A model generated the notes under the pieces. The model saw nothing but the letters and a program-made list of their open reading frames with translations. It did not search any database and was not told where the DNA came from. A stretch of DNA of 47,533 nt from Chloroflexota bacterium. Its GTDB lineage: Bacteria > Chloroflexota > Dormibacteria > CF-121. The translations under genes were made by a program, and so were the position numbers. Below, piece by piece: positions 9,868 to 11,428 of this stretch; the first letter of the stretch is position 1; the number at the start of each line of letters is the position of its first letter. The DNA is taken from NCBI GenBank assembly GCA_005889535.1, contig VBHC01000119.1:1-47533 (forward strand), in the 5' to 3' direction.

Positions 9868-10845
9868 GTGACCGTCTACCCCATTCTGTGGGATGGCGGC
9901 GTCTACCTCCCCGACCAGGGGCTCTGGCTCGATCCTCGCCAACCGCGACCGCGCGCGGTCATCAGCCACGCCCACAGCGACCATGTGGCCGCGCATCCAC
10001 TGGCGTATGCCACGCCCGCCACTCAGCGATTGGTTTCTCATCGGCGGCCATCCCTGGGCTCCGTTAAGGGCGTTCCATACGGCGAGCCGATCGCGCTCGA
10101 GCGATGCCGCCTGACATTCTTTCCGGCGGGCCACGTACTCGGGTCGGCACAGACGCTCCTGGAGACCGATTTCGGCCGCGTCCTGTATACCGGAGATCTA
10201 AAAACGCGCAGCGGATTCACGAGCGCGCCGGCGAAGCCGGTTCCCGCCGACGTCCTGGTTTTGGAGAGCACCTTCGGAAAGCCGCACTATCGCTTTCCCG
10301 CTGCCACCGAGGTGATCGCCGACATGGTTTCCTGGTGCCGGAGTGTGCTGGACGGCCACGCCACCCCGGTGCTGCTCGGCTACTCGCTTGGCAAGGGCCA
10401 GGAGATTCTCTCCGCTCTCGCCGCCGAGGGGCTGTGTATCGCCCTTCACCCGTCGTTATTCGGCGTGACGGAAGTGTATCGAGAGCTTGGCTGCGATTTC
10501 CCTGCCTACCAGTCGCTCGCCGAGCTCGACGCGACGCCAACCGTCGTCATCACCCCGCCTTCGGCCCGCCGCAATGGCCTCAAAGCGCTCGTGGGCGAAT
10601 TCAAAACGGCCGCCCTGACCGGCTGGGCGATGGACCGCAGTCTCAAGGACCGTCTGGAAGTGGACGCCGTCTTTCCCCTGTCCGACCACGCCGATTTCGA
10701 GGAGCTGTGTTGCTACGCGGAAGAGGTCGGGGCGGCCATGACCTATACCGTGCTCGGCTTCGATGAAGAGCTGGCGATGCATTTGCGACGACGGGGTCTG
10801 CGGGCGAAAGCGCTGACGGACTTCGACCAGCTGCGACTGTTTTGA
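9868..10845 (+). CDS. Metallo-beta-lactamase-fold nuclease (ligase-associated exonuclease-like)
   Basis: A 325-residue protein starting at GTG. The N-terminal metal motif HAHSDH (34-39) is followed by GHVLGSAQ (second metal histidine), LYTGDLKTR (aspartate ligand), a mid-part LESTFGKP and a late SDHADF histidine. This order is that of beta-CASP-related MBL proteins of the ligase-associated DNA exonuclease or CPSF-like group, about 330 residues, which cut nucleic acid with two zinc ions. No ATP-dependent DNA ligase or Lhr-type helicase lies next to it, so the DNA-repair role known for some relatives is inference. Confidence 0.82.
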   Translation: MTVYPILWDGGVYLPDQGLWLDPRQPRPRAVISHAHSDHVAAHPLAYATPATQRLVSHRRPSLGSVKGVPYGEPIALERCRLTFFPAGHVLGSAQTLLETDFGRVLYTGDLKTRSGFTSAPAKPVPADVLVLESTFGKPHYRFPAATEVIADMVSWCRSVLDGHATPVLLGYSLGKGQEILSALAAEGLCIALHPSLFGVTEVYRELGCDFPAYQSLAELDATPTVVITPPSARRNGLKALVGEFKTAALTGWAMDRSLKDRLEVDAVFPLSDHADFEELCCYAEEVGAAMTYTVLGFDEELAMHLRRRGLRAKALTDFDQLRLF

Positions 10846-10914
10846 GACGCCGGTCGCCACAATTCTGCAAGATCGTTTTGGACTGAGCGTTATCTCGGAT
10901 AAGCGCATGCGATT

Positions 10915-10939
10915 CGTGCGCCGCGGTTCGCCGCTCACG
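10915..10939 (+). promoter_or_regulatory. TTCG-capped leader hairpin before the micropeptide gene
   Basis: GCGG-TTCG-CCGC at 10923-10934 forms a four-pair stem with a stable tetraloop, extended by outer pairs CGTG (10915-10918) with CACG (10936-10939). The hairpin ends five bases before the AAGGAGG ribosome site at 10944. It may stabilise the 5' end or influence ribosome access. Confidence 0.45.
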
Positions 10940-10956
10940 CGATAAGGAGGTGACGC

Positions 10957-11016
10957 ATGGCGACCAGGAAGAAGGCCACGAAGAAGGCCAAGAAGTCGAC
11001 TCGGAAGAGCCGCTAA
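10957..11016 (+). CDS. 19-residue Lys/Arg-rich micropeptide
   Basis: ATG at 10957, nineteen codons, TAA at 11014-11016. The product is MATRKKATKKAKKSTRKSR, with 11 of 19 residues Lys or Arg. Support for expression is a perfect AAGGAGG Shine-Dalgarno at 10944-10950 with six bases to the ATG, a leader hairpin just upstream, and a strong terminator 12 bases after the stop. Composition resembles histone H1-like or HU-tail Lys/Ala repeats and small basic ribosomal proteins such as Thx, so nucleic-acid binding in the nucleoid or ribosome is a reasonable inference. I do not recognise a named family. It is too short for normal gene finders. The alternative is a leader peptide, but no gene follows on this strand before the terminator. 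Confidence 0.65.
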   Translation: MATRKKATKKAKKSTRKSR

Positions 11017-11028
11017 AGAGCGGTAACG

Positions 11029-11053
11029 AAAGGGGCCCGCAAGGGCCCCTTTT
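11029..11053 (+). terminator. Strong intrinsic terminator, possibly bidirectional
   Basis: A ten-pair stem AAAGGGGCCC / GGGCCCCTTT with a GCAA tetraloop (arms 11029-11038 and 11043-11052), ending in TTTT on the plus strand. It closes the micropeptide transcript. The reverse strand ends in TTTC, so it may also stop the minus-strand gene whose stop codon is at 11060. Confidence 0.88.
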
Positions 11054-11059
11054 CATTCT

Positions 11060-11428
11060 TCAAGTGCCGGTGGTAAAGGCGCGGATCGTCAACCCGGCCA
11101 TGAACAGGCCGGCGATGCCGTAGACGAGAGGCTCGCGACGCGGATCCCGTCCCGAGGTGTAGGTGGCGGCGATTGGCAGGACGACCACGAGCAAAATTCC
11201 GTAGAGCCAGTGCAGTCCGTCGTGCGGGCGACGTCCTCCGAAGAACAGGGCGATCCCGATCAGGCCCTGGACGATAAACAGGCCCTCGGTCAGCACCAAC
11301 GTCGACCGGAAGCCGCCGCTCGACGGCAACTTCCGGAAATAGACGACCAATCCCCAGATAGCGATGATCACGGTGATGAAGAGTCCTGCGCGGAACAGGC
11401 CGGCGTGAAGGAACAGAAGCGCGCTCAG
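11060..11428 (-). CDS. Small integral membrane protein
   Basis: The secure part is 103 residues from a GTG at 11371, but this start cuts the first membrane helix. The frame is open upstream and adds LSALLFLHAGLFRAGLFIT from a CTG at 11428. That CTG follows a GAGGAGG ribosome site and overlaps a TGA as CTGA, so I favour it (122 residues). Four hydrophobic segments are visible: about 4-28, 40-62, 70-88 and 100-118 in the longer form, with a GRRPHDGLHWLYG loop between the second and third. This layout resembles small DUF-type four-helix membrane proteins; no catalytic motif or function can be named. It lies downstream of the NUDIX gene. Confidence 0.65.
   Translation of the reverse strand: MSALLFLHAGLFRAGLFITVIIAIWGLVVYFRKLPSSGGFRSTLVLTEGLFIVQGLIGIALFFGGRRPHDGLHWLYGILLVVVLPIAATYTSGRDPRREPLVYGIAGLFMAGLTIRAFTTGT

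Follow-up and report, generated by a model that had tools for sequence, protein, structure and literature searches.

The HU/IHF family (PF00216) consists of small, basic, and abundant nucleoid proteins, and HU itself is a folded dimer of about 90 residues. The C-terminal domains of AlgP and PhaF, and chlamydial Hc2, are domains or proteins of more than 100 residues that share Lys/Ala-rich repeats, a strong positive charge, and an expected unfolded state. The KPAA domain of AlgP, which is of the histone H1-tail type, binds DNA, and AlgP also associates with polyphosphate granules (PMC9239181). Very small, very basic, and lineage-restricted proteins are found in ribosomes as well (bTHX [S31], bL37, bS22, and eL41), and such micro-proteins are often encoded apart from ribosomal genes (PMC3353972, PMC10085706).

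The stretch of Chloroflexota DNA analyzed here, 47,533 nucleotides in length (the window), contains a gene for a micropeptide whose AAKK/ATKK composition resembles that of H1-tail domains such as the AlgP KPAA domain, with 10 Lys/Arg among 19 residues and the Lys/Ala-rich low complexity of H1-like nucleoid proteins. It differs from the folded HU dimer, and it departs from AlgP, PhaF, and Hc2 in that the 19-residue peptide is the whole product, is near-invariant in its family, and has its own expression unit. We propose, with confidence and doubt about evenly matched, that this gene is an autonomous source of an abundant, unfolded, H1-tail-like peptide that neutralizes nucleic acid, with the nucleoid as its likeliest site of action. 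The features of the locus are as follows.

9868 to 10845, forward strand: upstream neighbor, a metallo-beta-lactamase-fold exonuclease of the ligase-associated type (TIGR04122), outside the unit
10865 to 10893, forward strand: candidate promoter/operator block CTGCAA-N17-CGTTAT, in which 17 of the 29 positions do not vary among the 18 family genomes
10903 to 10921, forward strand: leader hairpin 1, with GCGCA...TGCGC-type arms of variable sequence, both present in most relatives
10923 to 10934, forward strand: leader hairpin 2, GCGG-TTCG-CCGC, conserved in sequence
10944 to 10953, forward strand: extended Shine-Dalgarno sequence AAGGAGGTGA, with 10944 to 10956 invariant at 13 of 13 positions in 18 genomes
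10957 to 11016, forward strand: micropeptide gene, 19 codons plus stop, product MATRKKATKKAKKSTRKSR, in 18 of 18 family genomes
11029 to 11053, forward strand: terminator-like GC hairpin (by sequence and fold), loop GCAA, T-tract short, separating two convergent genes
11060 to 11371, reverse strand: downstream convergent neighbor, a 103-residue protein of unknown function in conserved synteny, outside the unit

The frame opens with ATG at 10957, closes with TAA at 11014 to 11016, and translates into the 19 residues of MATRKKATKKAKKSTRKSR, of which seven are Lys and three Arg, with Ala, Thr, Ser, and Met making up the remainder. The original prediction had placed the 19-codon frame correctly but had counted 11 basic residues in it. 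Its AAGGAGG is found six bases upstream of the ATG (10944 to 10950, spacer TGACGC), and complementarity to the standard 16S 3' tail reaches past this core to AAGGAGGTGA, the sole perfect copy within the window. Such an extended Shine-Dalgarno sequence would be a strong signal for what is as yet putative expression. Upstream, the UUCG-type leader hairpin that had been described is present as GCGG-TTCG-CCGC, but it is not of the extra-stable C(UUCG)G form because G-C closes its 4-bp stem. The region from 10922 to 10943 has a mean major-allele frequency of 0.98 across the 18 family genomes, with loop differences in leader hairpin 2 in two relatives (G016 and G015) and one broken pair in a third (G007). 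On the downstream side, the hairpin AAAGGGGCCC-GCAA-GGGCCCCTTT (11029 to 11052) does begin 12 bases 3' of the stop, as had been claimed for an intrinsic terminator, but it is a weaker terminator than that description implies: the U-tract is short and lies partly within the stem, and a strict consensus terminator scan did not list it. Most relatives carry hairpins of differing sequence at this position.

A DNA search of 61 related genomes recovered the unit from every one of the 18 genomes in f1, the GTDB family of the source genome, which spans four genera (labels f1 to f33 denote groups assigned in the search), with E values from 5.9e-104 to 4.1e-39. For the most part, the carrier genomes are incomplete or were assembled from metagenomes, and each f1 genome has one copy of a MATRKKATKKAKKSTRKSR-type peptide. 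Of the 18 peptides, 14 share one sequence, S14A occurs in three, and the remaining one contains a small insertion, so that S14A is the single residue change among the 17 ungapped copies. Synonymous changes in these 17 copies fall at codons 3, 4, 8, 9, 13, 15, and 16 and include a two-base AGG/CGT switch. Relative to the window copy there are 10 distinct point differences, of which two are nonsynonymous when counted base by base (one of them being half of the AGG/CGT switch), compared with 7.8 expected under random placement (P about 5e-5). Judged by these substitutions, 10957 to 11016 is a protein-coding gene. The original prediction had asked whether relatives might conserve RNA structure and not the codons; instead, the residues are kept, the differences are nearly all synonymous, and the leader has no compensatory pairs.

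Conservation also extends beyond the residues. In the 17 ungapped copies, about half of the codons (10 of the 18 that are degenerate) show no change at any of their three bases, compared with 3 of 92 invariant-residue codon columns in the exonuclease control, a comparison that is biased because the Lys codon AAG is favored in a GC-rich genome. The leader from 10922 to 10956 is likewise almost invariant in f1. We read this additional conservation as a probable constraint on the translation start and the level of expression, and possibly on an RNA role too.

The conserved block at 10865 to 10893 is sharply bounded in the 18 f1 genomes, with no invariant position among the 19 just upstream or the 9 just downstream. 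In one genus (g3, genome G016), the unit and its block are inverted with respect to the exonuclease and sit behind the gene for the 103-residue neighbor. These boundaries and this inversion bear out the idea of a stand-alone unit, and on such comparative grounds the micropeptide unit is autonomous, with a conserved upstream block of its own. CTGCAA-N16-18-CGTTAT occurs once in the source genome, and hence the block may serve specifically as promoter or operator of this unit; as a general promoter it was rejected for the same reason. The adjoining exonuclease has a clear match to TIGR04122, the model for the ligase-associated DNA damage response exonuclease (E 3.3e-66, 223 bits), but falls short of the curated cut-off of 325, which makes it either divergent within that family or an offshoot of it. 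A viral-contig search with this exonuclease gave one distant match, and a Pfam search with the 103-residue neighbor gave no family.

Similar genes are found well outside f1. A search pattern of a strong Shine-Dalgarno sequence, a short Lys-rich frame, and a stop matched 42 of 110 genomes of the class, and the reversed control pattern matched none; the counts are lower bounds because a GGAGG site and certain codons were demanded. Within the genus of the source genome, 14 of 15 genomes have a second micropeptide, which is MAAKKKAGGKKKAAKKSSKKK in all except one, where it is MAAKKKASKKKAAKKSSKKK.

G000:C138:28054-28133 (locus L101:1501-1566), reverse strand: second micropeptide MAAKKKAGGKKKAAKKSSKKK, with extended Shine-Dalgarno sequence and hairpin

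This second gene is flanked by genes for a ribonucleotide reductase and a PNPOx-like protein, and its codons are near-invariant as well. The 10-mer CGCTCACGCG at 10932 to 10941 of the window recurs in its leader, and thus in the leaders of both micropeptide genes of the genus; this could be a chance match in GC-rich sequence.

In the sister family f3, 27 of 42 genomes encode peptides of 20 to 24 residues, for example MMAKKKAAKKPAKKAAKKTSKKK, with at most three matches per genome. They are accompanied by AAGGAGGT and the hairpin CCGGGGTTCTGTGGAGCCCCGG, and their length varies mostly in AKK-type steps. At six f3 loci (L057, L059, L061, L062, L067, and L068), a strongly conserved untranslated leader of about 150 or more bases (GGAACC...GGGTCC) is present, and the f3 terminator hairpin is conserved even in its loop, beyond the need of a plain terminator. 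The conserved leader and terminator represent a possible structured RNA; an L20-leader-like Rfam match over the f3 terminator region was below threshold and was taken as chance. Families f2 and f4 have practically no micropeptides by the Shine-Dalgarno and Lys-rich pattern. Family f33, also within Chloroflexota, has six carrier genomes with peptides of 16 to about 21 residues, for example MPAKKKAAKKSTKKSSKKK, and three of the six have two matches.

A scan of GTDB contigs with the MATRKKATKKAKKSTRKSR-type pattern gave matches in soil Chloroflexi metagenome-assembled genomes (CF series), together with two further records: MATKKKAAKKAKKATKKKK from Acidobacteria, which has a Shine-Dalgarno sequence and a hairpin, and MATKKKATKKATKKTAKKKK from GN15, which has another such frame close by. 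In the GN15 genome, the two similar Lys-rich frames (L136:1501-1563 and 1898-1960) share a strand and are separated by about 400 bases. A pattern without the Shine-Dalgarno sequence matches 14 of 101 relatives of the Acidobacteria genome and 6 of 99 relatives of the GN15 genome, some of the latter matches not being in-frame ends. The likeness across lineages is one of a composition so simple that it can have arisen by convergence. With slightly more doubt than confidence, we suggest that free-standing, H1-tail-like micropeptides of about 16 to 24 residues, present in several phyla and often numbering at least two per genome, are abundant minimal nucleoid or ribosome proteins that annotation has overlooked. 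Frames so short and simple are passed over by gene finders and family libraries, and such a class would therefore be missed systematically.

The genomic surroundings give no function, since neighbors vary across lineages with no common theme. The MATRKKATKKAKKSTRKSR gene lies beside the exonuclease and the second peptide beside ribonucleotide reductase and the PNPOx-like protein, and the corresponding neighbors are a RecA-like protein, an FAD oxidoreductase, and hydrolases in f3, a menaquinone enzyme or glycosyltransferase in Acidobacteria, and a MatE transporter in GN15. A common neighborhood was accordingly discarded as a clue to function.

Searches of family libraries gave no match for five relatives of 20 to 24 residues in Pfam and NCBIfam at E values up to 10, the 19-mer itself being under the 20-residue limit; the original remark that no family matches thus holds for these five longer relatives. 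Short, low-complexity queries have little power in PDB sequence searches: a 20-residue variant, at E values up to 10, returned no ribosomal chain and only eukaryotic histone H3 tails (E 2.9 to 6.5, not significant), with which it shares an ATKxARKS-like string, and an f3 peptide returned no match. No Rfam family was found in the window at the gathering threshold, and ten related loci gave only sub-threshold matches at E values up to 1. None of 20 predicted leader pairs covaries. A search of a literature library for AAKK-type peptide strings did not find such a protein.

From composition and conservation, we infer binding to nucleic acid or to the ribosome, and the micropeptides are probably abundant DNA- or rRNA-binding proteins. 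The peptide would be made in large amounts from its autonomous gene and would have no fold of its own, acting like a fragment of histone H1 tail on its own, a small polycation that binds nucleic-acid phosphates and screens their charge. Its likeliest target would be chromosomal DNA, as an accessory nucleoid micro-protein beside a divergent HU, with rRNA as a close alternative. The AKK-type steps in the length of the f3 peptides fit a polycation and fit less well a protein embedded in rRNA. Against a nucleoid polycation counts the near-invariance in f1, which includes many codons and goes beyond what simple charge would need.

The divergent HU-like protein mentioned above (G000:C37:23516-23776, locus L160, reverse strand) has a C-terminal extension and scores about 34 bits to PF00216. 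It is conserved in most f1 genomes, one of which (G015, genus g2) has a canonical HU in addition. In the search of relatives, HU (PF00216) was found in none of the f3 genomes and in nearly all f2 and f4 genomes, which together with the divergent form in f1 suggested that the micropeptide replaces HU. Within the class the pattern fits, since f3 lacks HU and mostly has micropeptides and f2 and f4 show the reverse. Across the phylum it fails: among 400 Chloroflexota genomes, HU is present in each of the six f33 carriers, and both HU and micropeptides are missing from many families, so replacement was rejected. The sole f3 genome listed with HU in this sample (G100) has no micropeptide match, a single genome that proves nothing.

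The main rival to the nucleoid explanation is a lineage-specific ribosomal micro-protein, a very small basic peptide embedded in rRNA like bTHX, bL37, bS22, or eL41, which we regard as unlikely yet deserving serious weight. Size, charge, the extended Shine-Dalgarno sequence, the single copy per genome, and near-invariance across the four f1 genera are all as such a protein would have them. The known micro-proteins differ in that no solved chain of theirs matches (the 20-residue query having little power), whereas relatives of the micropeptide show second copies and length variation. A second micropeptide in the same genus, up to three copies of variable length in f3, and practically no matches in the sister families f2 and f4 would be unusual for a ribosomal protein.

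A less probable assignment is that of a polycation for some other polyanion (polyphosphate granules, RNA condensates, or the cell envelope) or, alternatively, of an antimicrobial-like peptide that is secreted. The H1-tail-like AlgP does associate with polyphosphate granules (PMC9239181), and inhibition of bacteria in vitro is known for bS22 and bL37, which are basic peptides of the ribosome (PMC10085706). The micropeptide, however, has neither a signal sequence nor a hydrophobic face, and the scanned neighbors include no export, immunity, or polyphosphate gene.

That the RNA is the main product, as a small or dual-function RNA with the peptide secondary, is a good deal more improbable still. 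The invariance of the leader and of about half of the codons, far above the exonuclease control, and a shuffle z-score of -3.1 for the region would suit it, but it does not account for residues conserved through synonymous change, it finds no covarying pairs and no Rfam family in the window, and its predicted fold pairs partly with the candidate promoter, which would lie outside the transcript.

A leader peptide or attenuator of a downstream gene, to which a terminator-like hairpin after a short frame might point, is close to refuted, as the next gene is convergent, leaving no same-direction gene to regulate, and the unit is inverted in G016. A chance open frame, conceivable for 19 codons of low complexity, is refuted by conservation in all 18 genomes with synonymous substitution, by the invariant Shine-Dalgarno sequence, and by the reversed control of zero.

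Under either the preferred nucleoid reading or its ribosomal rival, the peptides, if made, would rank with the smallest chromatin-type or ribosome-type proteins known. They occur in common uncultured soil bacteria and have no match in the family libraries tested. An extended Shine-Dalgarno match, changes confined to synonymous sites, and autonomy of the unit together make it possible to call so short a frame with confidence, and the conserved set can be targeted directly by small-protein mass spectrometry, by cryo-EM of ribosomes, and in nucleoid assays.
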